From Cellulomonas timonensis (GTDB lineage Bacteria > Actinomycetota > Actinomycetes > Actinomycetales > Cellulomonadaceae): DNA of 64,000 bases. The position numbers and the translations under genes were made by a program. The DNA is taken from assembly GCF_900046455.1 (NCBI RefSeq), contig NZ_FCOT01000009.1:62001-126000 (forward strand), written 5' to 3'. Below are positions 20,478 through 45,494 of the stretch, one piece after another (the stretch's first letter is position 1; each line of letters starts with the position of its first letter). Under the pieces are notes generated by a model that saw only the letters and a list, made by a program, of their open reading frames with translations, searched no databases and was not told where the DNA came from.

Positions 20478-20640
<163 letters not shown>

Positions 20641-26423: not shown

Positions 26424-26541
26424 CACCGCACGTCACGCGCTGTCGCCCGCAAGTGAGGTAAGCCTTCGCAGACATGGTCTGTGGCCCTGGCTACACTCGG
26501 CCAGGTTGGGATGTGAACGTCTTCACAAGTAGGGCGGGACA
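26424..26541 (+). promoter_or_regulatory. Promoter region of the menJ-nuo cluster
   Basis: This 118-bp gap holds a TACACT -10-like box at 26492-26497, a Rex-type palindrome at 26512-26527 and a DtxR/IdeR-like half-site (AGGTAAGCCT, 26456-26465) whose second half is degenerate. The Rex site would lie just past the inferred start of transcription, so binding would block initiation or early elongation. Confidence 0.6.
26512..26527. promoter_or_regulatory. Rex operator (ROP-like site)
   Basis: TGTGAACGTCTTCACA is a perfect palindrome with 6-bp arms (TGTGAA/TTCACA) and a 4-bp centre. It agrees with the Rex operator consensus of streptomycetes (TGTGAAC-n3-TTCACA, known). It ends 14 bp before the menJ-like start codon. 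A rex gene is in this window. Confidence 0.82.
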
Positions 26542-27837
26542 GTGGTTGACGCAAGGAGCGATGACGCCGACGTCATCGTCGTCGGCGCAGGTCCTGCGGG
26601 ATCAAGCGCTGCCTATCACTGTGCCTCCGCAGGCCTCGAAGTCCTCCTGCTCGAGAAGGCGGAGTTCCCCCGCGACAAGGTCTGCGGCGACGGGCTGACC
26701 CCTCGCGCGGTCAAGGAGCTCGCCGCGATGGGCGTCTCCCTCCGCGAGGAGGACGGCTGGATCCGCAACCGCGGGCTGCGCGTGGTCGGGGGCGGGCACC
26801 GCCTCGAGCTGCCGTGGCCCGAGCTGTCGAGCTACCCGTCGTACGGGCTGGCCCGCTCGCGGATGAGCCTGGACCACATGCTCGCGTCGCACGCCCGCGC
26901 CGCCGGGGCCAAGCTCCTGGAGCGCACCAACGTCACCGGCCCGCTGCTCGACGAGCGCACCGGCCGCGTGGTCGGCGTCACCGCCCGTCCCGTGGGCAGC
27001 GACGGCAAGCGCGCCGGCGAGGACGTCACCTACCGGGCCCCCGTGGTCATCGCGGCGGACGGCGTGTCCGCGCGGCTCGCCACCGGCCTGGGCCTCGAGA
27101 AGCGGATGGACCGGCCCATGGGGGTCGCCGTCCGCACGTACTTCCGCACGCCGCGGCATGACGACCCATGGATGGAGAGCCAGCTCGAGCTGTGGGACGG
27201 CGCCCCGGGGCGCTCGAACCTCATGCCCGGCTACGGCTGGATCTTCTCCCTCGGCGACGGCACCGCGAACGTCGGCCTCGGCTCGGTGTCCTCCACGGCC
27301 GCCGCGACGAAGGTCGACTACAAGGACTTGTTCCGCAAGTGGATGGCCAACGCCCCCGCCGAGTGGGACTTCACCCCGGAGAACCAGATCGGCGAGGTGC
27401 GCGGCGCCGCGCTCCCCATGGGCTTCAACCGGGGCCCGCTATACGGGCGGGGCCTGATGCTCGCCGGCGACTCCGCGGGCATGATCAGCCCGTTCAACGG
27501 CGAGGGCATCGCGTACGGGCTGCAGGCAGGCCGGTTCGCCGCGGACTCCGTGGTCCAGGCCGCCGCGCGTGGCTCCGCCGCCGGGCGTGAGCGCGCGCTG
27601 GCCGCGTACCAGACCCGCATGAAGGACGACCTGGGCGGGTACTACACGCTCGGCCGGATCTTCGTGAAGCTCATCGAGCACCCCCAGGTGATGCACGTGT
27701 GCACCCGCTACGGGCTGCCCCGCCCGCTGCTCATGCGCTTCGTGCTCAAGCTCCTGTCCGACTGCTACGAGCCGCGGGGCGGTGACATGGTCGACCGGAC
27801 CATCTCCGCGCTCGCCCGGCTGGCGCCGGCGGCATGA
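26542..27837 (+). CDS. Geranylgeranyl reductase family flavoprotein, probable menaquinone reductase MenJ
   Basis: A 431-residue FAD enzyme of the geranylgeranyl reductase family. The N-terminal dinucleotide fold is DVIVVGAGPAGSSAAYHCA (Gly15-x-Gly17-x2-Gly20), then KVCGDGLTPRAVKEL, and the second FAD motif GDSAGMISPFNGEGIAYGLQAG is split over about residues 308-328 (GDSAGMISPFNGEG, IAYGLQAG). Mycobacterial MenJ reduces one isoprene double bond in the menaquinone tail; the position between menG and nuoA supports that role here. It could instead act on other polyprenyl lipids. GTG start close behind the Rex-type site. Confidence 0.87.
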   Translation: MVDARSDDADVIVVGAGPAGSSAAYHCASAGLEVLLLEKAEFPRDKVCGDGLTPRAVKELAAMGVSLREEDGWIRNRGLRVVGGGHRLELPWPELSSYPSYGLARSRMSLDHMLASHARAAGAKLLERTNVTGPLLDERTGRVVGVTARPVGSDGKRAGEDVTYRAPVVIAADGVSARLATGLGLEKRMDRPMGVAVRTYFRTPRHDDPWMESQLELWDGAPGRSNLMPGYGWIFSLGDGTANVGLGSVSSTAAATKVDYKDLFRKWMANAPAEWDFTPENQIGEVRGAALPMGFNRGPLYGRGLMLAGDSAGMISPFNGEGIAYGLQAGRFAADSVVQAAARGSAAGRERALAAYQTRMKDDLGGYYTLGRIFVKLIEHPQVMHVCTRYGLPRPLLMRFVLKLLSDCYEPRGGDMVDRTISALARLAPAA

Positions 27838-27864
27838 TGCACACACCCTCAACGCTGCGGGTCA

Positions 27865-27886
27865 CGCCGGGACCTAGGTCCCGGCG
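27865..27886. other. Perfect 22-bp palindrome between menJ-like gene and nuoA
   Basis: CGCCGGGACCT is followed directly by its reverse complement. It lies 28 bp after the menJ-like stop and 100 bp before nuoA. As RNA it would fold into a stem of about 9 bp with a small loop. It may attenuate read-through from the menJ promoter or be a protein-binding site. The rest of the 148-bp gap shows no clear promoter boxes. Confidence 0.6.
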
Positions 27887-27985
27887 CGGGCTCCCCACCT
27901 CGGGAGACGCTCGACCGCAACCCCAGCCATCCCTGACTTTCGTCCTGCGCGGAAGTGTCCCCACCACGACCGGGAGAGTCGAGCA

Positions 27986-28348
27986 ATGACCAACCCGTAC
28001 GTCCCGCTCCTCTTCATGATGGGGATCGCCGCGGTGCTCGCCCTTGGCGGCGTGGGCGCCAGCGCGATCCTGGGGCCGAAGCGCTACAACCGCGCGAAAC
28101 TGGACGCATATGAGTGCGGCATCGAGCCGACACCGCATGCCGTCGGTGGCGGCCGGTTCCCGATCAAGTACTACCTCGTCGCGATGACCTTCATCATCTT
28201 CGACATCGAGGTGGTCTTCCTGTACCCGTGGGCCGTGAACTTCACGGAGCTCGCCACGTTCGGGCTCATCGCGATGCTGGGCTTCCTGGCCCTCATCACG
28301 GTGCCCTTCGTGTACGAGTGGCGCCGCGGCGGCTTCGAGTGGGACTAG
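27986..28348 (+). CDS. nuoA: NADH-quinone oxidoreductase subunit A
   Basis: A 120-residue membrane subunit of complex I with three helices. YECGIEP (Cys44 region), RFPIKYYLVAMTFIIFDIEVVF, seen as RFPIKYYLVAM and FIIFDIEVVFLYPW, and the end YEWRRGGFEWD are characteristic. GGGAGAGTC precedes the ATG. First gene of the 14-gene nuo cluster; the next gene is 12 bp away. Confidence 0.97.
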   Translation: MTNPYVPLLFMMGIAAVLALGGVGASAILGPKRYNRAKLDAYECGIEPTPHAVGGGRFPIKYYLVAMTFIIFDIEVVFLYPWAVNFTELATFGLIAMLGFLALITVPFVYEWRRGGFEWD

Positions 28349-28360
28349 GGGTGATCTGAC

Positions 28361-28912
28361 ATGGGTATCGAAGAGGCCCCTTCGGGGTTCCTGCTGACGA
28401 CGGTCGAGAACCTCGTCGGGTATTTCCGCAAGGGCTCGTTGTGGCCGGTCACGTTCGGACTGGCCTGCTGCGCGATCGAGATGATGGCGACCGGCACCAG
28501 CCGCTACGACATCTCCCGGTTTGGCATGGAGGTCTTCCGCGCCTCGCCGCGCCAGGCCGACCTGATGATCGTCGCCGGCCGGGTGAGCCAGAAGATGGCG
28601 CCCGTGGTGCGGCAGGTCTACGACCAGATGCCCGAGCCCAAGTGGGTCCTGTCGATGGGCGTGTGCGCGTCGTCGGGCGGGATGTTCAACAACTACGCGA
28701 TCGTGCAGGGCGTGGACCACGTCGTGCCCGTCGACATCTACCTGCCCGGCTGCCCGCCGCGGCCCGAGATGCTCATCAACGCGATCCTCGAGCTGCACAC
28801 GCAGATCCAGTCCGAGCCGCTCGGTGTGAACCGCAAGGAGGCGGCCCGCGCCGCCGAGGCCGCGGCCCTCAAGGCCACGCCGACGTCGCACATGAAGGGC
28901 CTGCTGGCATGA
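28361..28912 (+). CDS. nuoB: NADH-quinone oxidoreductase subunit B
   Basis: A 183-residue peripheral subunit that carries the terminal [4Fe-4S] cluster N2, the electron donor to quinone. The four ligands are Cys36 and Cys37 ([10 protein letters not shown]), Cys102 (GVCASSGG) and Cys131 (LPGCPPRPE). An Ala-rich C-terminal tail of about 30 residues follows. Its stop overlaps nuoC (ATGA), implying coupled translation. Confidence 0.97.
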
Positions 28913-29757
28913 GTGAGAAGTCCGGGGCGCCCGAGGGGGACAAGACCCCCGAGGTGTCCGCCGAGAAGGCAAGCGCGGCCGCGGCCGCGAAGCCGGGCGA
29001 CACGACGACGTCCGAGGCGCTGGCCGCGCAGAGCACGAGCGAGGCGGCCCTCGAGGGCGGCTCGCAGCACGTCGGCCCGCTGGGCTCGCCCGAGCCCGAG
29101 GTCATCGAGGTCCGCCACGGCATGTTCGGCGGCGGCCCCGGCTCCGGCGACACGTCCGGCTTCGGCGGACTGGTGACGACCGTGGCGCTGCCGGGCGCGA
29201 GCCCGCGCCCCTACGGCGGCTGGTTCGACGAGGTCGTCGACATCCTCATCGAGCTGCTCGACGCCTCCGGCACCGGGTTCGCGAACGCGATCCCCTCGGT
29301 GGTCGTGGACCGCAACGAGCTCACGCTGCACGTGGCCCGCGAGCACCTCGTCGAGGTCTCCCAGATGCTGCGCGACGACCAGGACCTGCGCTTCGAGCTC
29401 AGCCTGGGCGTCTCCGGCGTGCACTACCCGGAGCAGACGGGCCGCGAGCTGCACGCCGTCTACCACCTGGTGTCGGTGACGCACAGCCGTCGCCTGCGCC
29501 TCGAGGTCGCCGTCCCCGACGCCGACCCGCATGTGCCGTCCACCACCGGGGTCTACCCGACGAACGACTGGCACGAGCGCGAGACCTGGGATTTCTTCGG
29601 CATCGTCTTCGACGGGCACCCGGCGCTCGCGCGCATCCAGATGCCCGACGACTGGCCGGGCCACCCCCAGCGCAAGGACTACCCCCTCGGGGGCATCCCG
29701 GTCGAGTACAAGGGCGCCACCGTGCCGCCCGCGGACCAGCGGAGGTCGTACAGCTGA
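28909..29757 (+). CDS. nuoC: NADH-quinone oxidoreductase subunit C
   Basis: A 282-residue peripheral-arm subunit. The core shows [21 protein letters not shown], split as [11 protein letters not shown] and [11 protein letters not shown], then [18 protein letters not shown], and the signature [12 protein letters not shown]. The first 65 residues are a low-complexity Ala/Glu/Ser-rich extension not found in proteobacterial NuoC but usual in actinobacteria. The ATG overlaps the nuoB stop and its own stop overlaps nuoD. Confidence 0.95.
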
Positions 29758-31121
29758 TGTCCCCTCACACATCCCCTCAGGGCAAGCCCGCGGCCACCGG
29801 CCACATCGTCGACGACCAGGCCACTGGCGTGCCGTCCTTCGAGGCGTCCGGCGGCGACTGGTCCGACATCGCCGAGGAGGCTGCTCGCCTCGGCGAGGAG
29901 CGCATCGTCGTCAACATGGGCCCGCAGCACCCGTCGACCCACGGCGTGCTCCGGCTCATGCTCGAGATCGACGGTGAGACGGTCACCGAGGCCCGCGCGG
30001 GCATCGGCTACCTGCACACCGGCATCGAGAAGAACATGGAGTACCGGTCCTGGACGCAGGGCGTCACGTTCTGCACCCGCATGGACTACGTGGCGAACAT
30101 CTTCCAGGAGGCCGGCTACTGCCTGGCCGTGGAGAAGCTGCTCGGCATCACCGACGACATCCCGGAGCGGGCCACCGTCATCCGCGTGATGATGATGGAG
30201 CTCAACCGCATCGCCTCGCACCTGGTGTGCCTGGCCACCGGCGGGAACGAGCTGGGCGCCACGACGATCATGATCGTCGGCTTCAACGCGCGTGAGCAGG
30301 TGCTCCGGGTCTTCGAGCTGATCACCGGCCTGCGCATGAACAACGCGTACATCCGCCCGGGCGGCGTCGTGCAGGACATCCCGCCGGGCGCCCTCGACGC
30401 GGTCCGCGACGCGATCACGGTGATGAAGAAGGACTTCGGGCAGCTCGAGGACCTCATGCTGGCCAACCCGATCCTGCAGGCGCGCCTCAAGGGCGTCGGC
30501 TACCTGGGCCTGCCCGCGAGCATGGCCCTGGGCATCACCGGCCCCGTGCTGCGGTCCACCGGCCTGCCGTACGACGTGCGCAAGGCCGAGCCGTACTGCG
30601 GCTACGAGACCTACGACTTCGACATCCCGACGTCGACGGACGCCGACGCGTGGTCGCGGGTCGTCCTGCGCCTCGAGGAGTGCTACCAGTCGATCCGCAT
30701 CATCGAGCAGACGCTCGAGCGGCTCCAGGCGATGGGCCCCGGCCCGGTCATGGTCGAGGACAAGAAGATCGCCTGGCCCGCGCAGCTCGCCATCGGCTCC
30801 GACGGCATGGGCAACTCGCTGGACCACATCCGGGAGATCATGGGCACCTCGATGGAGGCCCTGATCCACCACTTCAAGCTGGTGACGGAGGGCTTCCGGG
30901 TCCCCGCCGGCCAGGCGTTCGTCTCGGTGGAGCACCCCCGTGGGGAGCTCGGCGTGCACCTCGTCTCCGACGGCGGCACGAAGCCGTACCGGGCGCACTT
31001 CCGCGACCCGTCCTTCAACAACCTGCAGGCCGTCTCCATGATGTGCGAGGGCGGCCAGGTGGCCGACGTCGTCGTCGCGGTGGCCTCGCTGGACCCCGTC
31101 CTGGGAGGGGTGGACCGCTGA
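29757..31121 (+). CDS. nuoD: NADH-quinone oxidoreductase subunit D
   Basis: A 454-residue subunit that, with NuoB, forms the quinone-binding site. Visible are [55 protein letters not shown] and the C-terminal DPVLGGVDR. The His-Pro-Ser-Thr-His loop that contacts the quinone headgroup is intact. A 40-residue leader precedes the core. One-base overlaps with nuoC and nuoE (TGATG). Confidence 0.97.
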
Positions 31122-32008
31122 TGTCCGTCGAGAACAGCGCACTGCCCGCCGGCGCGCGCCCGGCCGCCCGGTACGACGAGGAGACCCGCGCCCGGCTCGC
31201 CGCCGACGCGGCCCTGGTCGTCGCCCGCTACCCGCAGCCCCGCTCGGCGCTGCTCCCGCTGCTGCACCTGGTGCAGAGCGAGGACGGCTTCGTCAGCCCC
31301 GCCGGCATCGCGTTCTGCGCGGAGACGCTGGACCTGACCGCCGCCGAGGTCTCCGCGGTGGCCACGTTCTACTCGCAGTACAAGCGCCGGCCCAACGGCG
31401 AGTACACCGTGGGGGTCTGCACCAACACGCTGTGCGCCATCATGGGCGGCGACGCCATCTGGGAGGAGCTCTCCGAGCACCTTGACCTCGGCAACGACGA
31501 GACCACCGCCGACGGCAAGGTCACGATCGAGCGCATCGAGTGCAACGCGGCGTGCGACTACGCGCCCGTGGTGATGGTCAACTGGGAGTTCCTGGACAAC
31601 CAGACCCCGCAGTCCGCCGTCGAGACGGTGGACAAGCTGCGCGCGGGGGAGCCCGTCGCCTCGACGCGCGGCCCCGGCAAGATCTGCTCGTTCAAGCAGG
31701 TCTCGCGGGTGCTCGCGGGCTTCCCCGACGGCCTCGCCGACGAGGGCCCGAGCGGCGGCCCGGAGACCGAGCGCGGCACGCAGCTCGCCGCGGCGGAGGG
31801 GTGGACCGCCCCGGCGTTCCCCGGCGACGCCGCGAAGCCCGACGCCACGAAGCCTGCGGCCACGAAGCCTGCCGCCGCGAAGGGCGCCACGTCGCCCGAG
31901 GTCGGCGGCCCGCAGTCGAGCGCGGAGCGCAAGCCCACCTCGGCGAAGGACTCCTCTGCTGAGGACCAGCAGAAGAAGCAGAGCTCCGACCAGGCCAAGG
32001 AGTCGTGA
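31121..32008 (+). CDS. nuoE: NADH-quinone oxidoreductase subunit E
   Basis: A thioredoxin-like subunit holding the [2Fe-2S] cluster N1a, with ligands Cys100 and Cys105 (VGVCTNTLC) and Cys141 and Cys145 (ECNAACDY). At 295 residues it is longer than the usual 160-240: the last 75 residues are a charged Ala/Lys/Pro/Ser-rich tail with two ATKPA repeats, probably disordered. ATG shares a base with the nuoD stop. Confidence 0.95.
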
Positions 32009-33354
32009 TGACCGACGTGACGACCCTGACCCCCGTCCTGACCAAGGACTGGGGCCTCGAGCAGTCGTGGACCCTGCGGACGTACCTGGACGGCGGCGGC
32101 TACGCCGGGCTCCGGGCGGCGCTCGCGCAGGCCCCGGGCGACGTGATCACCGCGGTGAAGGACTCCGGCCTGCGCGGCCGTGGCGGCGCCGGGTTCCCCA
32201 CGGGCATGAAGTGGGGCTTCCTGCCCGCGCCCGACGGCGGCCCGCGCTACCTGGTCATCAACGCGGACGAGTCCGAGCCGGGCACCTGCAAGGACATCCC
32301 GCTGATGATGGCCAGCCCGCAGCTGCTCATCGAGGGCGCGATCATCACGTCCTATGCGATCGGCTGCTCGCACGCGTTCATCTACCTGCGCGGCGAGGTC
32401 GTGCACGTCTACCGCCGGCTGATGCGCGCGGTGGAGGAGGCCTACGCGGCCGGCTACCTCGGCAAGAACATCATGGGCTCGGGCTTCGACCTGGACATCA
32501 CCGTCCACGCCGGCGCCGGCGCCTACATCTGCGGCGAGGAGACGGCACTGCTCGACTCCCTCGAGGGGCGCCGCGGCCAGCCGCGCCTGAAGCCGCCGTT
32601 CCCCGCCGTCGCGGGCCTGTACGCGCGGCCCACGGTGGTCAACAACGTCGAGACCATCGCCTCCGTGCCCGCGATCCTCAAGGGCGGCGCCCAGTGGTTC
32701 CGCGAGATGGGCACCGAGCGCTCCCCGGGCTTCGGCATCTTCTCCCTGTCCGGCCACGTGCAGCGGCCCGGCCAGTACGAGGCGCCGCTGGGCATCACGC
32801 TGCGCCGCCTGCTGGAGATGGCGGGCGGCATCCGCGAGGGCCACGAGCTGAAGTTCTGGACGCCTGGCGGGTCCTCGACGCCGATCTTCACGGCCGAGCA
32901 CCTCGACATCCCGCTCGACTACGAGTCCGTCGCCGCCGCCGGGTCCATGCTGGGCACGCGCGCGCTGCAGATCTTCGACGAGACGACGTCGGTGGTCCGC
33001 GCGGTGACGCGCTGGACCGACTTCTACAAGCACGAGTCGTGCGGCAAGTGCACGCCCTGCCGCGAGGGCACGTTCTGGCTGTCGCAGGTGCTGCACCGCA
33101 TCGAGGCGGGCCAGGGCACCAGCGCGGACATCGACCTGCTGCTCGACCTGTGCGACAACATCCTGGGCCGCGCGTTCTGCGCGCTCGGGGACGGGGCCAC
33201 CAGCCCCATCACCTCGGCGATCCAGTACTTCCGGGAGGAGTTCGAGGCGGGCACCCACACGCCCGCCGACGAGCTGTTCCCGCCCGAGCGCAGCTCGAAG
33301 TTCACCTACACCCCGCGCCGTCCGGCCGGGCAGTTGGCGGGGGTCCACGCATGA
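32008..33354 (+). CDS. nuoF: NADH-quinone oxidoreductase subunit F
   Basis: A 448-residue subunit that binds NADH and FMN and starts electron transfer. The FMN/NADH loop is [16 protein letters not shown] (residues 54-69) with [12 protein letters not shown]. The N3 [4Fe-4S] ligands are Cys345, Cys348 and Cys351 ([12 protein letters not shown]) and Cys391 (GRAFCALGD). I chose ATG 32008, which overlaps the nuoE stop and is served by AAGGAG at 31997-32002; GTG 32005 is possible. Confidence 0.96.
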
Positions 33355-35975
33355 CCATCACGACACCGAAGCCCGGCTCGGGGGCGGCCGCCTCCCAGGG
33401 GACGCCCGCCGCGACGCCGGCGCCGGTGGACGCCGTGACGTTCACCATCGACGGCCTCGAGGTGGCGGTGCCCAAGGGCACGCTCGTCATCCGGGCCGCC
33501 GAGCAGGTCGGCATCCAGATCCCGCGGTTCTGCGACCACCCGCTGCTCGCCCCTGCGGGCGCGTGCCGCCAGTGCCTCGTCGAGGTGTGGGCGCCGGGCC
33601 GTGACGGCAAGCTCGCGAAGATGCCCAAGCCGCAGGCCTCCTGCACGCTCGAGGCGTCGCCGGGCATGCAGGTCAAGACGCAGCACACCTCGCCCGAGGC
33701 CGACAAGGCCCAGCACGGCGTGATGGAGCTGCTGCTCATCAACCACCCGCTCGACTGCCCGGTCTGCGACAAGGGCGGCGAGTGCCCCCTGCAGAACCAG
33801 GCGATGAGCAACGGGCGCGCGACGACGCGGTTCGTGGACGTCAAGCGCACGTTCCCCAAGCCGATTGCGATCTCCACGCAGATCCTGCTCGACCGGGAGC
33901 GCTGCATCCTGTGCCAGCGCTGCACGCGGTTCTCCAAGGAGATCGCCGGCGACGCGTTCATCGACCTGCAGAAGCGCGGCGCCAACCAGCAGATCGGCCG
34001 CTTCGCCCCCGAGGTGCTCGGCTTCGAGGCCCCGGCCGGCGCGCCTAGCGGCGAGGTGCCCGTGGGCCCCGCAGAGGAGGACGAGTCCGGCGAGCCGTTC
34101 GCGTCGTACTTCTCGGGCAACACCGTGCAGATCTGCCCGGTGGGCGCCCTGACCAGCGCGTCCTACCGGTTCCGGGCCCGCCCGTTCGACCTGGTGTCCA
34201 CCCCGGGCGTCTCGGAGCACGACTCGTGCGGCTCCGCGATCCGCGTCGACCACCGCCGGGGCGTCGTGCTGCGCCGCCTGGCGGGCGAGGACCCCGCGGT
34301 CAACGAGGAGTGGATCACCGACAAGGACCGCTTCGCGTTCACCTGGCAGTCCGCCCCGGACCGCATCACCACCCCGCTGGTCCGCGACGAGGCCACTGGC
34401 GAGCTCCGCGTCGCGAGCTGGGTCGAGGCGCTGGACGTCGCCGCGGAGGGCCTGCGCGCCGCGCTGAAGCCCGCCGAGGCCGGCGCCCCCGCCGGTGTGG
34501 GCGTGCTGCCCGGCGGCCGGGTGACCCTCGAGGACGCGTACGCGTACGGCAAGTTCGCCCGCGTGGCCCTCGGCACCAATGACGTCGACCTGCGCAGCCG
34601 CCCGCTGTCCGCCGAGGAGGAGGCCTTCCTGGGCAGCCACGTCGCCGGCCGCGCGATGCAGGTCACCTTCGCCGACCTGGAGAAGGCGCCTGTCGTGCTC
34701 CTCGCCGCCCTCGAGGCGGAGGAGGAGGCCGGGGTCACGTTCCTGCGGCTGCGCAAGGGCGTCCTCGCGCGGACCACGCGCGTCGTCGCGGTCGCGCCGT
34801 TCGCCAGCCGCGGCCTGGAGCGTCTCGACGGGACGCTCGTCACGGCCGCCCCCGGCACCGAGGCCGAGGTGCTCGACGCGGTGGAGCCCGGCTCCGACGT
34901 GCCGACGCTGAGCGCACTCGCCGCCGACCTCGCCCAGCCAGGCGCCGTGATCCTGGTGGGTGAGCGGCTCGCCGCAGTCCCCGGCGGGCTCACCGCCGCG
35001 CTGCGCCTCGCGGAGCGCACCGGCGCCCGCCTCGCCGGGATCCCCCGCCGTGCGGGGGAGCGTGGCGGTGTCGAGGCCGGCGCGCTGCCGAGCCTGCTGC
35101 CGGGCGGTCGCCCGGTCGCGGACGCCGCCGCACGAGTCGACGTCGCCGCCGCCTGGGACGTCGAGTCGCTGCCGACGGCGCCCGGCCGCACCGCCACGGG
35201 GATCCTCGAGGCCGCCCGCACGGGCCGGCTCGGGGCGCTCGTCGTCGGCGGCGTGGACCTGCGCGACCTGCCGGACCCGGCCGCCGCCCGCGAGGCGCTC
35301 CCCGCCGCCCCGTTCGTCGTCTCGCTGGAGGTGCGCTCCTCGGAGGTCACCGCGCTGGCCGACGTGGTGCTGCCCGTCGCGCCGCCGGTGGAGAAGGGTG
35401 GCACGTTCGTCACCTGGGAGGGTCGCCCGCGGCCCTTCCCGCAGGCGCTGACCTCCACGGCGGTGGGCGACCACCGCGTGCTCGACCGGCTGGCCGATGC
35501 CCTGGGCGTCACGCTGGGCGTGGGCACGCTGGCCAAGGTGCACTCCGAGCTCGACCAGCTGGGCGCCTGGGACGGCGCCCGGGTCGCGGCGCCCGCCACG
35601 GCGGCCCCCGCGCCGCCCGCGGGCGCCCCCGGCCACGCGGTCCTGGCCACCTGGCACCTGCTGCTCGACTCCGGGCGCCTGCAGGACGGCGAGGCGTTCC
35701 TCGCCGGCACCGCCAAGCGGCCGGTGGCGCGCGTGTCCGCCGCGACGGCCGAGGGCGCCGGCGTCGCTGACGGCGGCCTGCTCGCGGTCAGCACCGACGC
35801 CGGCACGATCGAGCTGCCGGTGGTCGTCACCGACATGCCCGACCACGTCGTCTGGCTGCCCACCCACTCGCCCGGCTCTGCCGTGCGCGAGACCCTGCAC
35901 GCCGGACCAGGTGCGCTTGTGCGCCTGGCTCCCGGGACCCAGAACGACGTCACGGACGCGGAGGTGCGGGCATGA
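33351..35975 (+). CDS. nuoG: NADH-quinone oxidoreductase subunit G
   Basis: The 874-residue largest peripheral subunit. Cluster ligands are readable: [2Fe-2S] N1b Cys61, Cys72, Cys75, Cys98; N5 His132, Cys136, Cys139, Cys145; N4 Cys185, Cys188, Cys191 and Cys262 ([10 protein letters not shown]). The following molybdopterin-oxidoreductase-like domain is degenerate and carries no cofactor, as in other NuoG proteins. An insert of about 30 residues (222-251, Pro/Glu-rich) precedes the last N4 ligand. ATGA overlaps at both ends. Confidence 0.95.
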
Positions 35976-37339
35976 GTCTGCTCAGTGCAGTGGGCGCATC
36001 GCTCCCCACAGCGGTCGGCGATCCGACCGCCGCGGACTTCAGCAACGACAACGCCTGGATCTGGCTGCTCAAGGCCGTGGCGATCGTCGTCTTCCTGCTG
36101 GTCAGCGTCCTCATCGCGATCTGGTTCGAGCGCAAGGTCGTCGCCCGCATGCAGGTGCGGCCCGGCCCCAACGTGCACGGGCCCGTCGGCCTGCTGCAGC
36201 CGGTCGCCGACGCGATGAAGCTCCTGTTCAAGGAGGACATCACCGTCAAGGCGGCGGACAAGCTCGTCTACCTCGTGGCGCCGATGATCGCGGTGTTCTG
36301 CTCGCTGCTGACCTTCGCGGTGATCCCGTTCGGGCCCAGCGTGAGCATGTTCGGCATCGTGACGCCGCTGCAGCTCACCGACTTCCCCGTCGCGGTGCTG
36401 TACATCCTCGCGTGCACCTCGGTGGGCGTGTACGGGATCGTGCTCGGCGGCTGGTCCTCGGGCTCGACGTACCCGCTGCTCGGCGCGGTGCGGTCCACCG
36501 CGCAGGTGATCTCCTACGAGCTGGCGATGGGCCTGTCCCTGGTCAGCGTGTTCATCATCGCGGGCTCGATGTCGACCTCGCAGATCGTCGGCTCCCAGAC
36601 GCAGGTCTGGTGGTTCCTGCCACTGCTGCCGGCCTTCGTCATCTACATCATCGCGATGGTCGGCGAGACGAACCGCCTGCCGTTCGACCTCCCCGAGGCC
36701 GAGGGCGAGCTCGTCTCCGGCTACATGACCGAGTACTCGTCGATGAAGTTCGCGTGGTTCTTCCTCGCGGAGTACATCAACATGATCAACGTCTCGGCGG
36801 TCGCGACCACGCTGTTCTTCGGCGGCTGGCGCGCCCCGTGGCCCATCTCGTGGATCAACGACGGCATGTTCAACACCGGCTGGTGGCCGGTGCTGTGGTT
36901 CGTCGCGAAGGTCTGGCTGTTCATGTTCGTGTTCGTGTGGATCCGCGGCTCGGTGCTGCGCTTCCGGTACGACCAGTTCATGAAGATCGGCTGGAAGGTC
37001 CTCATCCCCATCGCCCTCGCCTGGGTCGTGTGCGTGTCGATCGTGCAGGGCGTGCGGAACTTCACCGACGTGGACCTGCAGACGATCCTCTTCGTGCTGG
37101 CGGGCATCGTCGTCGTCGCCGTCGGCATCTCGTTCCTCATCCCCGAGAAGCCCCAGCCCGAGCCCGAGGGCCCGCCCCGCGGCACCGTCGACGACCCCGT
37201 GGTCATCGACGCGTTCGCGGGCGGGTACCCGGTCCCGCCGCTGCCGGGCCAGGCACTGCCCCCGTCCCCGCGCCGCTCCCGCAGCGCGGGCGACCCGACC
37301 GAGACCCCCCAGGTCACCCAGGAGGCGCACCGTGGCTGA
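35972..37339 (+). CDS. nuoH: NADH-quinone oxidoreductase subunit H
   Basis: A 455-residue membrane subunit that links the quinone chamber to the proton-pumping arm, with about eight helices. Typical segments are [54 protein letters not shown] and [15 protein letters not shown]. The last 50 residues form a Pro-rich cytoplasmic tail absent from E. coli NuoH. Overlaps nuoG by 4 bp and nuoI by 8 bp. Confidence 0.96.
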
Positions 37340-38048
37340 CCAGCCCAAGGACGTCACGCCGAGCGAGCCCGGCGGCGAGGTCGCGACCCCCGGCGCCTAT
37401 GAGTCCCTGATCCCGAAGCGCTCGGGCATCCGGGAGGTGCTGGCCCCGGTCGGCGGCTTCGGCGTCACGTTCTCGAACATGTTCCGCCCGGTGATCACCG
37501 AGCAGTACCCGTACGAGAAGGTCCCGCCGCAGCCGCGCTACCACGGCCGCCACCAGCTCAACCGGTACCCGGACGGCCTGGAGAAGTGCATCGGCTGCGA
37601 GCTGTGCGCCTGGGCGTGCCCCGCGGACGCGATCTACGTCGAGGGCGCGGACAACTCGCCCGGCGAGCAGATGTCGCCCGGCGAGCGGTACGGCCGCGTC
37701 TACCAGATCAACTACCTGCGCTGCATCTTCTGCGGGCTGTGCATCGAGGCGTGCCCGACGCGGGCGCTCACGATGACCAACGAGTTCGAGCTCGCGGGCC
37801 CCACCCGCGAGGGCTTGATCTACGAGAAGAACGACCTGCTGGCCCCGATGCTCGACGGCATGCTGGCCGCGCCCCACCCCATGGCGCCCGGCACGTCCGA
37901 CACCGAGTACTACCGCGGCGAGATCACCGGCCCCGCGCCCGCGCAGGTCGAGTGGGTCGCCGAGCACCGCCCCGACGACCCGACGTTGCCCGGCGCCGAG
38001 CGCGCTGCGGAGCGCCTGGCCCACGCCCACAACCCGGAGAACCGATGA
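37332..38048 (+). CDS. nuoI: NADH-quinone oxidoreductase subunit I
   Basis: A 238-residue ferredoxin-like subunit with two [4Fe-4S] clusters, N6a and N6b: Cys86, Cys89, Cys92, Cys96 ([13 protein letters not shown]) and Cys131, Cys134, Cys137, Cys141 ([13 protein letters not shown]). It passes electrons to NuoB. The start is GTG 37332, inside the nuoH end, preceded by GGAGG at 37320-37324. The C-terminal extension after residue 170 is hydrophilic. Confidence 0.96.
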
Positions 38049-38938
38049 GCCCCCTCGCCGCGGTGCTGCCGACGGTCCTCAGCGACACCGGCGTCACCAG
38101 CACGGGTGAGGCCGTGCTCTTCTGGGTCCTCGCGCCCATCATGGTCCTCGCCGCGCTGAGCCTGCTGTTCGCCCGCAAGGCCGTGCACGCCGCGATGTCC
38201 GTGGTGGTCGTGATGATCTCCCTCGCGTTCATCTACGTCGCCCAGGACGCCCCGTTCCTCGGGGTCGTGCAGGTGGTCGTCTACACCGGCGCGATCATGA
38301 TGCTGTTCCTCTTCGTGCTGATGCTGGTCGGCGTCGACGCCTCGGACTCGCTGGTCGAGACCCTGCGCGGGCAGCGCTGGATCGGGATCCTCGCCGGCAT
38401 CGGCCTGGCGAGCGTGCTCGTCGGCGTCGTCGGCCGGGCGAGCTACGGCGCGCCGATCGGGCTGGAGGCGGCGAACGCCGACTCGAACCCCGTGGGCGTC
38501 GCGCGGATCATCTTCGGCCAGTACGTGTTCTCGTTCGAGGTCGTCGGCGCGCTGCTGGTCACCGCGGCGCTGGGCGCCCTCGTCCTGACGCACCGCCAGC
38601 GCCTGGTGCCCCGCATCGGGCAGCGCGAGCGCCAGGAGACGCGCGTGCTCGGCGGCGGCTCGCTCACCCCGCAGCCCGCGCCCGGCGTGTACGCCCGCCA
38701 CAACGCGATGGACGTGCCCGCGCTCGACCCGCAGGGCCGCCCGATCGAGGCGTCCGTCTCGCGCGTGCTGCGCATCCGCGGCCAGCAGGCCGGCACTGCG
38801 GGCTTCCGCGCCGAGATCCAGCCGTTCTCCGGCGGGGCCGACATCGGCCCGCCCGTGCAGGAGGCAGGTGACGTCGGCGAGACGTCCGGCCCGACGACAC
38901 CGATCACCACACCGCGGGGCACGGAGGAGACGCCATGA
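38045..38938 (+). CDS. nuoJ: NADH-quinone oxidoreductase subunit J
   Basis: A 297-residue membrane subunit with five helices in the first 185 residues, including the conserved [17 protein letters not shown] segment whose pi-bulge takes part in coupling. The last 110 residues are a soluble Gly/Pro/Arg-rich tail, much longer than in proteobacteria (about 185 residues in total there). ATGA overlaps with nuoI and nuoK. Confidence 0.94.
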
Positions 38939-39234
38939 CCCTCACCCACTACCTGGTGCTGTCGGCGCTGCTGTTCAGCATCGGCGCCGCCACCCTGCTG
39001 GTGCGCCGCAACGCGATCATCGCGTTCATGGGCATCGAGCTGATGCTCAACGCGACCAACCTCGCACTCGTGACGTTCGCCCGCATCCACGGCAACCTGA
39101 ACGGCCAGGTGATGGCGTTCTTCGTCATGGTGGTCGCGGCCGCCGAGGTCGTCATCGGGCTCGCGATCATCGTGGCCATCTTCCGTACCCGCCGTTCGGC
39201 CTCGGTCGACGACGTCAACCTGCTGAAGAGCTGA
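38935..39234 (+). CDS. nuoK: NADH-quinone oxidoreductase subunit K
   Basis: A 99-residue three-helix subunit related to MnhC/MrpC. The buried glutamates of the proton path are in [13 protein letters not shown] and [11 protein letters not shown]. Length is standard. The ATG overlaps the nuoJ stop; nuoL starts 11 bp after the stop. Confidence 0.97.
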
Positions 39235-39244
39235 GGGCCGGCAC

Positions 39245-41218
39245 GTGCACACCCTGACCCCCCTCGCCCTGGCCGCGGACACCCCCGCCGCCGTGGTGCA
39301 GACCGTCGAAGGCGGAGTGTTCGCGCTCGCGCCGCTGATGGTCGTGCTCCCGCTGCTCGGCGCCGCCGTGCTGCTGCTCGCCGGGCGCCGTTCCGACCGC
39401 TGGGGCCCGTGGTTCGCCGTGGCGATGTCCACCGGCGCCTTCGTGGTCGGCCTGCTGAACATCATCGGCCTGCTGGGGCGCCCCTCAGCCGAGCGGGTCC
39501 TCGACCTGCACATGTTCGACTGGATATCCGTCGGCTCGTTCGACCTCAGCGCGGGCCTGCGCCTCGACCCCCTGTCGCTCACCTTCGTGATGCTGGTGAC
39601 GTTCGTCGGCTCGCTGATCCACGTCTACTCGATCGCGTACATGTCCGAGGACCCGGCGAAGCGCCGGTTCTTCGCGTACCTCAACCTCTTCATCGCGGCG
39701 ATGCTGCTGCTGGTGCTGGCCGACAGCTACCTCCTGCTGTTCGTCGGCTGGGAGGGCGTGGGCCTGGCCTCGTACCTGCTCATCGGCTTCTGGAACCACA
39801 ACCTGGCCTACGCGGTCGCGGCGAAGAAGGCGTTCATCGCCAACCGCATCGGCGACGTCGGCCTGCTGGTCGCCCTGATGCTGATGTTCTCCACGTTCGG
39901 CGGCGTCAGCTTCACCGACGTGGAGGCCGGGGTCCCCGGCGCGTCCACCGCGACGCTCACGGCGATGGGCCTCGTGCTCCTCGTCGCGGCGTGCGGCAAG
40001 TCTGCGCAGTTCCCCCTGCAGTCCTGGCTCGGCGACGCGATGGCGGGCCCCACGCCCGTCTCCGCCCTGATCCACGCGGCGACGATGGTCACCGCGGGCG
40101 TCTACCTCGTGGTCCGCTCCGGCGTGATCTACGACGGTGCCCCGGACGCCCGCCTGGTCGTGGTGATCATCGGCGCGATCACGCTGCTCTTCGGGGCGAT
40201 CGTCGGCTGCGCCAAGGACGACATGAAGAAGGCCCTCGCGGCGTCGACGATGTCGCAGATCGGCTACATGATCCTCGCGGCGGGCCTCGGCCCGATCGGC
40301 TACGCGCTGGCGATCTTCCACCTGGTCACGCACGGCTTCTTCAAGGCCGGCATGTTCCTGGGCGCCGGGTCCGTGATGCACGGCATGGACGACCAGGTCG
40401 ACATGCGCCGCTTCGGCGGCCTGGCCCGTTACATGCGGATCACCTGGGTCACGTTCGGCCTGGGCTGGCTCGCGATCCTCGGCATCCCGCCGTTCTCCGG
40501 GTACTTCAGCAAGGACCGGATCATCGAGGCGGCCTTCGTGCCCGTGGACGGCGCCGAGTGGCGCGCCTGGGTGTTCGGGACCGTGACGCTGATTGGCGCG
40601 GGCATCACCGCGTTCTACATGTCCCGCATGTTCTTCATGACCTTCGAGGGCAAGCGTCGCTGGGCCCCGAAGGCCGACGGAGAGCAGCAGCACCCGCATG
40701 AGTCGCCGCGTCTGATGACGGTGCCGATGATCGTGCTCGCAATCGGCTCGGTCGCCCTGGGCGGCCTGCTGGTGGTCGGCGGGTTCCAGACCTGGCTCGG
40801 GCCGGTCACGGGCCACGTCACGCATGACGCGCCGGTGCTGCCGGTGTGGCTGATCATCACCCTCACGATGCTGTTCGTCGTGGTCGGCCTGGTGCTCGCA
40901 TGGCGCCAGTACGCCGCATCCCCTGTGCCCATCACCCCACCGCCTGGCTCGGCGCTCACCCGCGCGGCACGCGCGGACCTGTACCAGGACGCGGTCAACG
41001 ACGCGCTGCTGGTCGAGCCCGGCCAGCACCTGACCCGTTCGCTCGTCTACCTCGACCGCCAGGTCGTGGACGGCGGGTTCTCGGGCCTGGCCCGGTTGGT
41101 GGTCCGCAGCGGCGACGTCGTCCGCAAGCTGCAGACGGGCTTCGTGCGGCAGTACGCCGCGACGATGCTCATCGGGCTCGTCGTCCTCGTCGTCGCCGTC
41201 CTGGCCCCCCGGATCTGA
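39245..41218 (+). CDS. nuoL: NADH-quinone oxidoreductase subunit L
   Basis: A 657-residue antiporter-like subunit at the distal end of the membrane arm, with 14 to 16 helices and the long lateral helix at its C-terminus. Conserved segments are [18 protein letters not shown] (key Glu), [43 protein letters not shown] (read in two parts) and [21 protein letters not shown] start. It pumps protons with NuoM and NuoN. Confidence 0.97.
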
Positions 41219-41233
41219 GAGAGAGCCGCGTCG

Positions 41234-42793
41234 ATGTCCTCCGGATTCCCCTGGCTCACCGCCCTCATCGTCCTGCCGCTCCTCGGAGCCGCAGCGGTCT
41301 GGGCCCTGCCTGCCACGCGCCGCCGCCTCGTGCGGCCGGTCGCGCTCGGCTTCTCCCTCGCTGAGGTGCTCCTCGCCGTCGGCGCGGTCGTGTCCTTCGA
41401 CACGGCCCAGGCCGGCGTGCACCAGCTCGTCGAGACCCACGCGTGGATCCCCGCCCTGGGGGTCAGCTACGCGGTGGGCGTCGACGGCGTGGGCCTGCTC
41501 CTCGTCCTGCTCTCGGTCGTCCTCGTGCCGTTGGTGCTGCTCGCGGCCTGGAACGAGCAGGGCAGCACCAAGGAGGTCGTCACCGACCAGCTCCGCCACT
41601 ACATGGCCCTGATCCTGCTCACGCAGGTGTTCATGGTCGCGGTGTTCGCGGCGCGTGACGTCTTCCTGTTCTACGTGCTCTTCGAGGCCATGCTCATCCC
41701 GGTCTACTTCCTGATCGGGCAGTTCGGCGGGGTGCGGCGCCGGTACGCGGCCGTGAAGTTCCTGCTGTTCTCGCTGGCTGGCGGCCTGGTGATGCTCGTG
41801 GGCGTCATCGTGCTCTTCCTCGAGGGCCCCGGCGGCCCGCAGGGCTTCCTCACCGAGAACCTCGTGGGCCTCGACCTGTCGACGGACACCGAGCGCTGGC
41901 TGTTCGTCGCGTTCTTCCTAGCATTCGCCATCAAGGCGCCGATGTTCCCGGTGCACACCTGGCTGCCCGACGCCGCCGAGCAGGCCCCGGCCGGCACCTC
42001 GGTGCTGCTGGTGGGCGTGCTCGACAAGGTCGGCACCTTCGGGATGCTCACGCTGTGCCTGCCGCTGTTCCCGAACGCGGCGCAGTGGGCCGCCCCGGTG
42101 GTCATCGTGCTGGCGGTCATCTCGATCCTGTACGGCGCGCTGCTCGCCATCGCGCAGCAGGACCTGATGCGGCTCATCGCCTACACGTCGGTGTCGCACT
42201 TCGGCCTCATCGTGCTGGGCATCTTCGCCTTCACGTCGATGAGCGTCGCCGGCTCGTCGTTCTACATGGTCAACCACGGGCTCTCCACCGGCGCGCTGTT
42301 CCTGCTCGCCGGCTACCTGATCTCGCGGCGCGGCTCGCGGAAGATCGCCGACTTCGGCGGCCTGCAGAAGGTGGTGCCGGTGCTCGCCGGGACCTTCCTG
42401 GTGGCGGGCCTCTCGGCGCTGTCGCTGCCCGGCCTCTCGACGTTCATCAGCGAGTTCATGGTGCTGATCGGCACCTTCGCCCGCGACCGCCCGGCGGCCG
42501 TGGTCTCCGCGTTCGCCGTGGTGCTCGCCGCGCTGTACATCCTGCTGACCTACCAGCGGATCTTCACCGGCCCCGTCCGGGACGGCCTCGAGACGATGCC
42601 GGACCTGTCCGGGCGCGAACGGTGGGCTGTGGGGCCGCTGATCGCGATCATGCTCGTGATCGGCTTCTACCCCGCGCCCGCGCTCGAGTTCGTCAACGAG
42701 CCGGCCCAGATCACGCTCGACCAGGTAGGGATACAGGACGTGCCGTCGACAGTGCTCGTCAACGACGCGGCGACTGAGGGGACTGACAAGTGA
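41234..42793 (+). CDS. nuoM: NADH-quinone oxidoreductase subunit M
   Basis: A 519-residue antiporter-like proton channel. Typical segments are DGVGLLLVLLSVVLVPL, FYVLFEAMLIPVYFLIG with the coupling Glu, KAPMFPVHTWLPDAAEQAP and AYTSVSHFGLIVLGIF. Fourteen helices are expected. ATG 41234 lies 16 bp after nuoL. Its stop overlaps the nuoN GTG (GTGA). Confidence 0.97.
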   Translation: MSSGFPWLTALIVLPLLGAAAVWALPATRRRLVRPVALGFSLAEVLLAVGAVVSFDTAQAGVHQLVETHAWIPALGVSYAVGVDGVGLLLVLLSVVLVPLVLLAAWNEQGSTKEVVTDQLRHYMALILLTQVFMVAVFAARDVFLFYVLFEAMLIPVYFLIGQFGGVRRRYAAVKFLLFSLAGGLVMLVGVIVLFLEGPGGPQGFLTENLVGLDLSTDTERWLFVAFFLAFAIKAPMFPVHTWLPDAAEQAPAGTSVLLVGVLDKVGTFGMLTLCLPLFPNAAQWAAPVVIVLAVISILYGALLAIAQQDLMRLIAYTSVSHFGLIVLGIFAFTSMSVAGSSFYMVNHGLSTGALFLLAGYLISRRGSRKIADFGGLQKVVPVLAGTFLVAGLSALSLPGLSTFISEFMVLIGTFARDRPAAVVSAFAVVLAALYILLTYQRIFTGPVRDGLETMPDLSGRERWAVGPLIAIMLVIGFYPAPALEFVNEPAQITLDQVGIQDVPSTVLVNDAATEGTDK

Positions 42794-44490
42794 ACGCGGC
42801 CTTCATCGCACCGGAGATCGCCTGGTCGCAGCTGACCCCGATCATCCTGGTGCTCGGCGCTGCCGTCATCGGCGTGCTCGTCGAGGCCTTCGCGCCACGG
42901 CAGCACCGCCGCCAGGCGCAGCTCGCGCTCTCGCTGCTGGCGACCGCGGGGGCGCTCATCGCCGCCGCGGTGCTGTGGGTCGACGTCCGCGCCACCGGCG
43001 GCACCGTGGTGCTGGGCGGCGCGGTCATCGTCGACGGGCCCACGGTGGTCATGCAGGGGACCATCGCGGTCTTCGCGCTGCTGTCCTTCCTCGTCGTCGC
43101 CGATCGGACCCGCTCGGGGGAGGACGCGTTCGCCCCCCAGGCCTCGGCCATCCCCGGCTCGGACTACGAAGAGGTGGCCCTGCGCAAGGGCCTGCAGCAG
43201 ACCGAGGTCTACCCGCTGATGCTCTTCGCCACCGGCGGCATGCTGATCTTCCCCGCCACCGGCGACCTGCTCACGCTGTTCGTCGCGCTCGAGGTGCTCT
43301 CGCTGCCGCTGTACCTGCTCACCGGGCTGGCGCGCCGCCGCCGCCTGCTGAGCCAGGAGGCGTCGATGAAGTACTTCCTGCTGGGGTCCTTCGCCTCCGC
43401 GCTGCTGCTGTTCGGCATCGCGCTGCTCTACGGGTTCTCCGGCTCGCTGCGCTACGCGGACATCGCGGCCGCGACGCAGACGGTCACCGGGCTCGACGGG
43501 CTGCTCATCGTGGGCGCCGTGCTGGTGCTCGTGGGCTTGCTGTTCAAGGTCGGCGCCGTCCCGTTCCAGCAGTGGACGCCGGACGTCTACCAGGGCGCCC
43601 CCACGCCCATCACCGGCTTCATGGCCGCGGGCACCAAGATCGCGGCCTTCGGCGCCCTGCTCCGCGTCTTCTACGTGGTGCTGCCCGGCCTCGAGTGGGA
43701 CCTGGAGGCGGGCATGTGGGCCGTCGCCATCCTCACCATGGTGGTCGGCACCATCGCGGCGCTGGTCCAGACGGACATGAAGCGCGTGCTCGCCTACTCC
43801 TCGATCGCCCACGCCGGCTTCGTGCTGACGGGTGTGATCGCCCTCAACTCCGAGGGCATCGCGGGCGTCATGTTCTACCTCATCGCGTATGGCGCGGCGA
43901 CGGTCGGCGCCTTCGGCATCGTCTCGCTGGTCCGTGAGCGGAGCGTCGCCCCGGTGGCGGTCGCGGTCGCCGCGGGGGAGGGCGCCACGGCTGAGGGCTC
44001 CACGGTCGAGGGCTCGGCTGTCGAGGGATCCGACGCCAGCGCCGACGGCGGTGTCGTCATCGGCGAGGCCACGCACCTGTCGCAGTGGGCTGGCCTGGGC
44101 CGCACGCACCCGTGGACGGCTCTGACGTTCACGCTGTTCCTGCTGTCCTTCGCGGGCATCCCGCTGACGGCCGGCTTCATCGGGAAGTTCACGGTGTTCT
44201 CGGCGGCCGTCGCCGCGGGCGCGTGGCCGCTCGCCCTGATCGGCGTGCTCGCGTCCGCCGCAGCCGTGTTCTTCTACGTGCGCGTCATCGTGCTGATGTT
44301 CTTCACGGCGCCTGCGGGCTCCGAGGAGGACGGTGACGGCGCGCCCGTGACCTCCACCACCACTGTCGTGTCCGCTCAGGGCCTCACAGCGGTGGCGGTC
44401 GCGGCATGCGCCTTGATCACGATTGCGCTCGGCGTGCTGCCGTCCTCGGTTCTCGATCTGGTGGCCGAGGCGGCTAAGTTCATCCCGTGA
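42790..44490 (+). CDS. nuoN: NADH-quinone oxidoreductase subunit N
   Basis: A 566-residue antiporter-like subunit. The blocks FVALEVLSLPLYLLTGLARR, SMKYFLLGSFASALLLFG, FKVGAVPFQQWTPDVYQGAPTPITG (in two parts) and KRVLAYSSIAHAGFVL are typical. Between helices, around residues 393-426, is an inserted low-complexity loop with repeated Glu-Gly-Ser motifs (TAEGSTVEGSAVEGSDAS). GTG start overlapping the nuoM stop; its stop overlaps the start of the prenyl synthase gene. Confidence 0.96.
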   Translation: MNAAFIAPEIAWSQLTPIILVLGAAVIGVLVEAFAPRQHRRQAQLALSLLATAGALIAAAVLWVDVRATGGTVVLGGAVIVDGPTVVMQGTIAVFALLSFLVVADRTRSGEDAFAPQASAIPGSDYEEVALRKGLQQTEVYPLMLFATGGMLIFPATGDLLTLFVALEVLSLPLYLLTGLARRRRLLSQEASMKYFLLGSFASALLLFGIALLYGFSGSLRYADIAAATQTVTGLDGLLIVGAVLVLVGLLFKVGAVPFQQWTPDVYQGAPTPITGFMAAGTKIAAFGALLRVFYVVLPGLEWDLEAGMWAVAILTMVVGTIAALVQTDMKRVLAYSSIAHAGFVLTGVIALNSEGIAGVMFYLIAYGAATVGAFGIVSLVRERSVAPVAVAVAAGEGATAEGSTVEGSAVEGSDASADGGVVIGEATHLSQWAGLGRTHPWTALTFTLFLLSFAGIPLTAGFIGKFTVFSAAVAAGAWPLALIGVLASAAAVFFYVRVIVLMFFTAPAGSEEDGDGAPVTSTTTVVSAQGLTAVAVAACALITIALGVLPSSVLDLVAEAAKFIP

Positions 44491-45494
44491 GCTCTGCAAC
44501 CTCCCTCCCGCTGACCGATCCGGCGTTGGCCGACCTGTTGACGGGGCGGCTCTCGCTCGTCGAGGAGCGGCTGCGTGACGCGGTCAGCCACGCCGACACG
44601 CTCGCCGACGACGCCTCGCGGCACCTCGTCAACGCGGGCGGCAAGCGCCTGCGCCCGCTGCTGACGCTGCTCGCCGCCCAGCTCGGCGATGGCGAGCGGC
44701 GCGAGGTGCTCGACGCGGCCGTCGTGGTCGAGCTCACGCACCTCGCCTCGCTGTACCACGACGACGTCATGGACTCCGCGCCCGTGCGGCGCGGAGCCCC
44801 GGCGGCCCACGAGGTGTGGGGGAACCAGGTGGCCATCCTCACCGGCGACCTGCTGTTCGCCCGGGCGTCGGTGATGGTCGCCGGGCTGGGGCCCGAGGCC
44901 GTGCGGATCCAGGCGACGACCTTCGAGCGCCTGTGCCTCGGGCAGCTCCACGAGACCGTGGGGCCGCGTCCTGACGAGGACCCGGTGGAGTTCTACCTGC
45001 AGGTCCTCGCCGACAAGACCGCCTCGCTGGTCGCGACGTCCGCGCGGTTCGGCGCGATGTTCGCGGGCTGCCGCCCCGACGTCGTGCAGATCGTCACGAG
45101 CTTCGGGGAGAAGGTCGGCGTCGCGTTCCAGCTCGCCGACGACGTCATCGACCTCACGTCGGACGCCAGCGTCACTGGTAAGACGCCCGGCACCGACCTG
45201 CGCGAGCATGTGCCGACGATGCCGGTGCTCCTGCTGCGCCGCCGCGCCGCATCCGGCGACGGCACCGCCGCCGAGCGCGAGCTCGTGGCGCTGCTCGACA
45301 GCGACCTGTCCTCCGACGACGACCTCGCGCGGGCCGTCACGGCGCTGCGCACCCACTCTGTGGTGGACGAGACGCGCGCGCAGGCGATCGCCCTGGTCCG
45401 GGCCGCCGTGGCCGAGCTGGCGCCACTGCCCGCCGGGCCGGTCAAGGAAGCCCTCGTGTCGTTCGCGGAGTCCCTCGTGGACCGCGCTTCCTGA
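44487..45494 (+). CDS. Polyprenyl (long-chain) diphosphate synthase
   Basis: A 335-residue all-helical trans-prenyltransferase that adds isopentenyl units to make the menaquinone side chain. The first Asp-rich motif is HDDVMD (Asp92, Asp93, Asp96) and the second is QLADDVIDLTSD (Asp218, Asp219, Asp222); GGKRLRPLLTLLAAQ is also typical. Small residues before the first motif (Ala-Ser-Leu-Tyr) allow a long product, but exact length (likely C40-C45) is inferred from context. The GTG overlaps the nuoN stop, so expression is tied to complex I. Confidence 0.92.
   Translation: MSSATSLPLTDPALADLLTGRLSLVEERLRDAVSHADTLADDASRHLVNAGGKRLRPLLTLLAAQLGDGERREVLDAAVVVELTHLASLYHDDVMDSAPVRRGAPAAHEVWGNQVAILTGDLLFARASVMVAGLGPEAVRIQATTFERLCLGQLHETVGPRPDEDPVEFYLQVLADKTASLVATSARFGAMFAGCRPDVVQIVTSFGEKVGVAFQLADDVIDLTSDASVTGKTPGTDLREHVPTMPVLLLRRRAASGDGTAAERELVALLDSDLSSDDDLARAVTALRTHSVVDETRAQAIALVRAAVAELAPLPAGPVKEALVSFAESLVDRAS

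Follow-up and report, generated by a model that had tools for sequence, protein, structure and literature searches.

A Putative Rex Operator ahead of the menJ-Like Gene and Complex I Genes in Cellulomonas timonensis and Its Relatives

The Putative Operator and Its Predicted Role

The sequence TGTGAACGTCTTCACA, located at 26512..26527 on the + strand of the window (that is, the whole 64-kb stretch of Cellulomonas timonensis DNA analysed here), is very likely the operator of the redox-sensing repressor Rex encoded 21 kb away; as such, it would repress a single operon composed of a menJ-like gene, the genes of complex I and a polyprenyl diphosphate synthase gene, the repression being lifted by NADH. 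This reading, put forward in an initial annotation of the same DNA, appears well supported at the sequence level by the conservation of the site before menJ in 65 of 80 loci, by the joint presence or absence of site and rex, and by an intact Rex reading head; directly observed in it are the presence and conservation of the site, the link with rex and the order of the genes.

At low NADH, Rex would be favoured on the DNA, where by binding about 9–24 nt downstream of the transcription start it would block the expression of the menJ-like quinone-tail reductase, of complex I and of the polyprenyl diphosphate synthase; upon a rise in NADH, as expected at low oxygen or in excess of substrate, Rex would leave the DNA, and more complex I would be produced together with more of the enzymes which build and saturate the menaquinone tail. 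Repression and its release by NADH are assumed here by analogy with S. avermitilis and with structural work on other Rex proteins. Since the site stands at the head of one long gene cluster, the redox state probably sets the levels of reductase, complex I and synthase together. The quinone side-chain reductase and the synthase would in this way be placed under the NADH-sensing switch of complex I, and it becomes testable whether bacteria adjust to their redox state the structure of menaquinone, beyond the dehydrogenases.

Form, Position, and Genomic Context of the Site

The 6-base arms of TGTGAACGTCTTCACA pair perfectly and the central CGTC is unpaired, which gives 6 of 8 possible pairs; the description of the site as a perfect palindrome in the initial annotation had therefore to be rejected in favour of a 6+4+6 inverted repeat, while its position was confirmed. 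The likeness to the streptomycete Rex site claimed at the same time holds to a large extent, 13 of the 14 letters of the 18-base consensus TTGTGAANNNNTTCACAA, as given in PMC5355995, being matched, with the first T as the sole mismatch.

The site is rare. The 64-kb window contains, as had been claimed, no second one, zero further occurrences of TGTGAACNNNTTCACA being found at up to 2 mismatches; the next-best place, at 4939-4954, carries 3 mismatches and lies within the glutaredoxin-like coding sequence upstream of rex, so that it is not taken as a rex operator. In the whole genome containing the window (4.06 Mb in 13 contigs), the menJ site is the only place which matches TGTGAA-N4-TTCACA at 0 or 1 mismatch, with 24 places at 2 mismatches; about 0.008 perfect sites are expected by chance in 4.06 Mb, as estimated from the base composition of the window.

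The site lies 14 nt after a -10-like hexamer, TACACT (26492..26497, + strand), and is separated by another 14 nt from the GTG at 26542 with which the menJ-like gene begins, namely between the -10-like box and the start codon as originally noted. A -35-like hexamer, CAGACA (26469..26474, + strand), precedes the -10-like one by 17 nt, and both are kept in relatives; relative to a predicted transcription start near 26504, the operator would extend over about +9 to +24. Among the 65 relatives' loci which carry the site (see below), a -35 hexamer of the form NAGACA is found in 43 (CAGACA in 36, AAGACA in 4, and GAGACA in 3), and the spacing between -10 hexamer and site is 12–14 nt in 51. The operator sits in what these conserved hexamers suggest to be the promoter of a respiratory operon; a generic promoter scan did not list CAGACA-N17-TACACT, which has 8 of 12 consensus letters against a threshold of 9. 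Just before the -35-like hexamer, a block of the form TnAGGnnAnCCTTCG at 26453-26468 is shared by most Cellulomonas, whether or not they have rex; it resembles part of an iron box.

The menJ-like gene (26542..27837, + strand) encodes a FAD protein of 431 aa belonging to the geranylgeranyl-reductase family (TIGR02032). It is followed on the + strand by nuoA to nuoN, encoding complex I (27986..44490), with inter-gene gaps of -8 to +15 nt (the starts of nuoC, nuoE, nuoG, and nuoJ being taken as the first candidates in this count), and by the polyprenyl diphosphate synthase gene (44487..45494, + strand), whose overlap with the end of nuoN, reported in the initial annotation, amounts to 4 nt. The genes nuoA, nuoM, nuoN, menG, menF, and that of the synthase were identified individually, the remaining nuo letters being assigned by order and size. 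Control of the synthase through an unbroken operon fits this gene spacing, and a single transcript from menJ to the synthase gene may be envisaged; the only longer gap in the cluster is that of 148 nt between menJ and nuoA.

This gap is at the centre of a different reading, according to which the Rex operator governs menJ only or mainly, while nuoA-N and the synthase gene are transcribed from a promoter of their own located in the 148 nt, perhaps under a regulator of the DosR/DevR type. The length of the gap equals the longest among relatives (-7 to 148 nt in 78 of 80 loci, the remaining two, L042 and L043, ending before nuoA), and the gap holds the window's only perfect GGGAC-N4-GTCCC palindrome, GGGACCTAGGTCCC (27869..27882, without strand assignment), which we take to be DosR/DevR-like and which may represent a second input. 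On the other hand, the gap is variable, menJ and nuoA even overlapping in L058, L064, and L092 (L092 lacks both site and rex); upstream of nuoA, a threshold of 10 of 12 arm letters gives no site in any of the 80 loci, as far as these reach (L042 and L043 end earlier); elsewhere the cluster contains hardly any gaps; and a generic scan of 26400-28100 finds no promoter- or terminator-like site, although the same scan misses the menJ promoter too. A separate nuo promoter is on balance rather unlikely, and in the following the Rex operator is considered as that of the entire cluster.

Rex and the MenJ-Like Protein

As stated in the initial annotation, Rex is encoded in the window: the gene at 5249..5959 (+ strand) specifies a redox-sensing repressor of 236 aa, with an N-terminal winged helix (PF06971) and a Rossmann domain (PF02629). 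Residues 28-232 match 8 solved Rex sequences, five of them at E 3.2e-39 or better, the best alignments ending at 226-232. When the 12 residues by which T. maritima Rex touches DNA (PMC8836258) were mapped by hand on this alignment, 10 proved identical in the protein of the window (R36, S57, Q70, R72, K73, S76, G82, R84, G85, and Y88), among them the Arg-Lys pair of the recognition helix (R72 and K73); the non-identical ones are R67, where Lys is changed to Arg, and G58, at a position reportedly not conserved. The bases which the T. maritima protein reads through Arg48 and Lys49 (PMC8836258) lie within the invariant GTGA and TCAC of the sites described below, the match in numbering being our own.

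A glutaredoxin-like gene (PF05768, 4910-5194) directly precedes rex, giving the neighbourhood a redox theme. Autoregulation of rex was considered and rejected: in agreement with the earlier statement that no site lies before rex, the window's sole weak place there, mentioned above, is coding, and none of 30 relatives' rex loci (from 33 rex genomes, with about 1.5 kb examined on each side and less at contig ends) has a site with at least 10 of 12 letters.

With regard to the product of the first gene of the cluster, membership in the geranylgeranyl reductase family is indicated by a TIGR02032 score of 241.7 bits, compared to a cut-off of 158.8; no other protein of the genome exceeds this cut-off, the next best reaching 88.3 bits. 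MenJ (Rv0561c) reduces one unit of the menaquinone tail. Both MenJ and the window protein are FAD-dependent members of the geranylgeranyl-reductase family; they differ in that the window protein, with 245.7 bits, is far below the cut-off of 700 set by NCBI for MenJ (NCBIfam NF045655). An effect of NADH and Rex on the saturation of the quinone tail is plausible, as this genome has no second protein of the family which exceeds the cut-off.

Conservation and Co-Occurrence with rex

The conservation of the site was analysed in the best 80 of 118 confirmed menJ loci retrieved by one menJ-protein scan, a choice which makes the sample lean to Cellulomonas; the closest named menJ product among the matches, that of Cellulomonas cellasea ET82, is 100% identical. 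When a match of 10 or more of the 12 arm letters is required, 65 of the 80 loci carry a site in the 200 bp which precede menJ, and only 2 matches occur in their remaining 530,645 positions; the arms are perfect in 9 of the 80. A chance match devoid of function, for which the shortness of the motif and the single locus would speak, is contradicted by this conservation (65 of 80 relatives against 0.0008 expected per locus), as well as by the fact that the site is absent together with rex, and can hardly be credited.

The check suggested in the initial annotation, whether in related genomes the site lies before menJ rather than nuoA, gave a positive outcome for Cellulomonas, the Promicromonosporaceae-type genera, Sanguibacter, and the Nocardioidaceae, and a negative one for three Streptomyces-type genomes, whose operator comes after menJ. 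The form of the site varies with the group. In Cellulomonas (n = 40), the first letter is C in 26 and position 11 is G in 30, corresponding to the form CGTGAACNNCGTCACA; most site-bearing Cellulomonas carry this form, which departs from the motif at 2 of 12 arm letters and constitutes a point against the Rex reading. TGTGA(C/T)-N4-TTCACA is the prevailing form among the 17 sites of the Promicromonosporaceae-type genera and Sanguibacter, and CGTGAA-N4-TTCACA among the 6 of the Nocardioidaceae. The core GTGA-N6-TCAC is invariant in 65 of 65 sites, although the threshold tolerates two changes anywhere in the arms; an A follows the right arm, as in the extended Rex consensus, at 61 of 63 loci (L074 and L076 excluded).

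The presence of rex was assessed by whole-genome searches with the Rex of the window. Of the 80 loci, 50 were chosen, comprising 14 of the 15 without site (L081, the second strain of a species, was omitted) and 36 of the 65 with site; as L040 dropped out, 49 genomes were searched. Of the 35 genomes which carry the site, 33 gave a Rex match, compared to 0 of the 14 siteless ones; 8 of these 14 are MAGs, and when only isolates are counted, the figures are 27 of 28 versus 0 of 6. Two genomes depart from this pattern: Flavimobilis marinus and an uncultured relative (L074 and L076), in which no rex was found, carry a 10/12 site of decayed appearance, TGTGACCTCGTTCACC, with the right arm TTCACC, which may be a relic. 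A search with the Rex N-terminal profile in 24 genomes gave scores above the cut-off in the genome of the window, in all 4 of the earlier positives which were included and in three Streptomyces-type genomes, and below it in the 14 siteless genomes and in L074 and L076, with weak sub-threshold matches in G005 and G011, both siteless.

With the window added, Fisher's exact test yields p = 1.3e-10 for the association of site and rex, a value which is too optimistic because the genomes are related. In a menJ tree, built by a quick method and with several open forks, three independent pairs can be drawn, which point in the same direction in 2.9 of 3 on average with the site leading and in 2.5 of 3 with rex leading, and are never opposed; a sign test on three pairs gives p 0.25 at best, their number being too small for significance. 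Three rex-less Cellulomonas belonging to one clade (L031, L036, and L048) keep both the -35 and the -10 hexamer and have no operator, thus providing a natural control with a similar promoter and no operator.

As the GTGA-N6-TCAC core is kept by all 65 loci, a CRP/GlxR-type cAMP regulator, which would repress from a position beyond the transcription start, had to be taken seriously as the cognate protein. The CRP/GlxR motif is TGTGA-N6-TCACA. TGTGAACGTCTTCACA fits this motif, a circumstance which also counts against the Rex reading; up to one mismatch, the motif occurs at 32 places of the genome, 5 of them perfect and including the menJ site, compared to 4 for a reversed control pattern, and the genome has two strong matches to PF13545 (Crp/Fnr-type). 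An activator would not be expected at +9, whereas a repressor role is possible. Yet the loss of the site is not accompanied by a loss of Crp/Fnr-type proteins: PF13545 proteins (E 2.9e-15 or better) are found in 12 of the 14 siteless genomes and only weak matches in the other two, although this family does not separate GlxR from its kin, while none of the 14 has a detectable rex. Moreover, the sites show Rex-like features beyond the shared core, namely the A after the right arm in the 61 of 63 loci noted above, an A at position 6 of the left arm in 39 of 40 Cellulomonas and a T at position 11 in the right arm at all 23 loci from the Promicromonosporaceae-type genera with Sanguibacter and from the Nocardioidaceae, and a nuoA1 site of S. 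avermitilis having the same mixed shape was footprinted with Rex (PMC5355995). The CRP/GlxR operator was set aside because of the persistence of Crp/Fnr-type proteins in siteless genomes, and we regard it as very improbable; Rex remains the preferred candidate for binding at the site.

Comparison with Known Systems

The original work on Rex was reportedly carried out in S. coelicolor. In S. avermitilis, as reported in PMC5355995, binding of Rex to the promoter of nuoA1 and to others with such sites is documented by EMSA, ChIP, and footprints; an operator of the same form is thus found at a complex I operon, nuoA1-N1, where repression is lifted by NADH. In that case, however, the operator lies between the -35 and the -10 of nuoA1, whereas here it would follow the putative start and is placed ahead of menJ. 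A closer positional parallel is offered in the same account by cydA1B1CD, whose operator is just downstream of the start (footprint from -3 to +25) and which differs in its target genes.

A search of 396 genomes sampled from the phylum detected the published nuoA1 operator in 8, adjoining nuoA in 8 of 8; in three same-class genomes among these, the order is menG, menJ, operator, nuoA, with the operator 1.7-2.3 kb after menJ. No place with at least 9 of 12 letters occurs before menJ in the stretches of these three Streptomyces-type genomes which were read. The contrast with Streptomyces suggests that the position of one operator can draw a neighbouring gene into the regulon.

The association of quinone genes with a nuo operon has a further parallel in the ggr-nuo-ubiE cluster of Actinomyces oris, in which ggr and ubiE are the quinone genes; Rex is not mentioned in the passages of PMC5478893 considered here. 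In the isolates nearest to A. oris among those searched, Actinomyces vulturis (L092) and a Gleimia (L099), neither site nor rex was found. A search of the open literature retrieved no paper joining Rex with a geranylgeranyl reductase or a MenJ operon; PMC6461227 does combine MenJ, menaquinone, and "Rex", the latter being a resin. Rex control of nuo is therefore known, in Streptomyces, and what the genomes indicate in Cellulomonas and its relatives is a variant with menJ as the first gene behind the predicted operator.

Other Candidate Sites and the DosR/DevR-Like Palindrome

A known target of Rex is cydA, the cydA1B1CD operon of S. avermitilis being under its control (PMC5355995). Among 16 genomes searched, cydA was found in 15, and the motif (at least 10 of 12 letters) is found upstream of it in 5, all of which have rex (G025, G030, G032, G037, and G049); it was not found in two rex-less genomes with cydA, in the genome of the window or in 7 others with rex. 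Control of cydA by Rex in the genome of the window was considered and not found, the best place having 8 of 12 letters. Such sites precede cydA at L150, L157, L159, L162, and L166, with two in a row at L162. Since they occur in some relatives and not in the genome of the window, the Rex regulon seems to differ between genera.

In a scan of 28 genomes, places at 0 or 1 mismatch numbered 0-3 in each of the 8 rex-less ones, including a perfect motif in G011, 18 bp before a TetR-type frame, which is a point against the Rex reading; in view of these stray matches, an isolated match away from the menJ locus carries little weight. The exact sequence of the drifted form CGTGAACNNCGTCACA occurs once in each of 9 of the 15 genomes in which it was sought; G020 and G021 have a site before menJ which differs from it by one mismatch, and some other 1-mismatch sequences recur, such as CGTGAACGCCGTCACG in G018, G028, and G044. 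Further Rex targets with drifted sites may exist. The frames near sites in other genera, picked mechanically, include an aldehyde dehydrogenase and the N-terminus of a prolyl oligopeptidase, several having no family.

In 25 of 80 loci, a GGGAC-N4-GTCCC palindrome matching 9-10 of 10 letters (13 perfect) is located upstream of menJ at a distance of 60-200 bp, compared to a background of 36 matches (3 perfect) among the remaining 535,605 positions. L031, L036, and L048, the rex-less Cellulomonas, retain it with 9 of 10 letters. A perfect copy also lies at most 200 bp before the cydA domain in 6 of 20 loci, including that of the window's genome (L152). Given that this genome has no other Rex-type site at 0 or 1 mismatch and none at cydA or rex, and that the palindrome is present at cydA and, in many relatives, before menJ, it can tentatively be proposed, as a possibility more than an expectation, that Rex in Cellulomonas has become nearly a single-operon regulator which ties complex I to the synthesis and saturation of the quinone tail, cytochrome bd having passed to a DosR/DevR-like regulator. 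If this were true, NADH would tune the chemistry of the quinone pool in addition to the amount of the enzyme which feeds it.

Elsewhere in the window, an exact 129-base repeat (19764-19892 and 20349-20477) is present in the menC-like region, followed by long G-runs near 20535-20620; repeat and G-runs are probably an artefact of assembly or sequencing.
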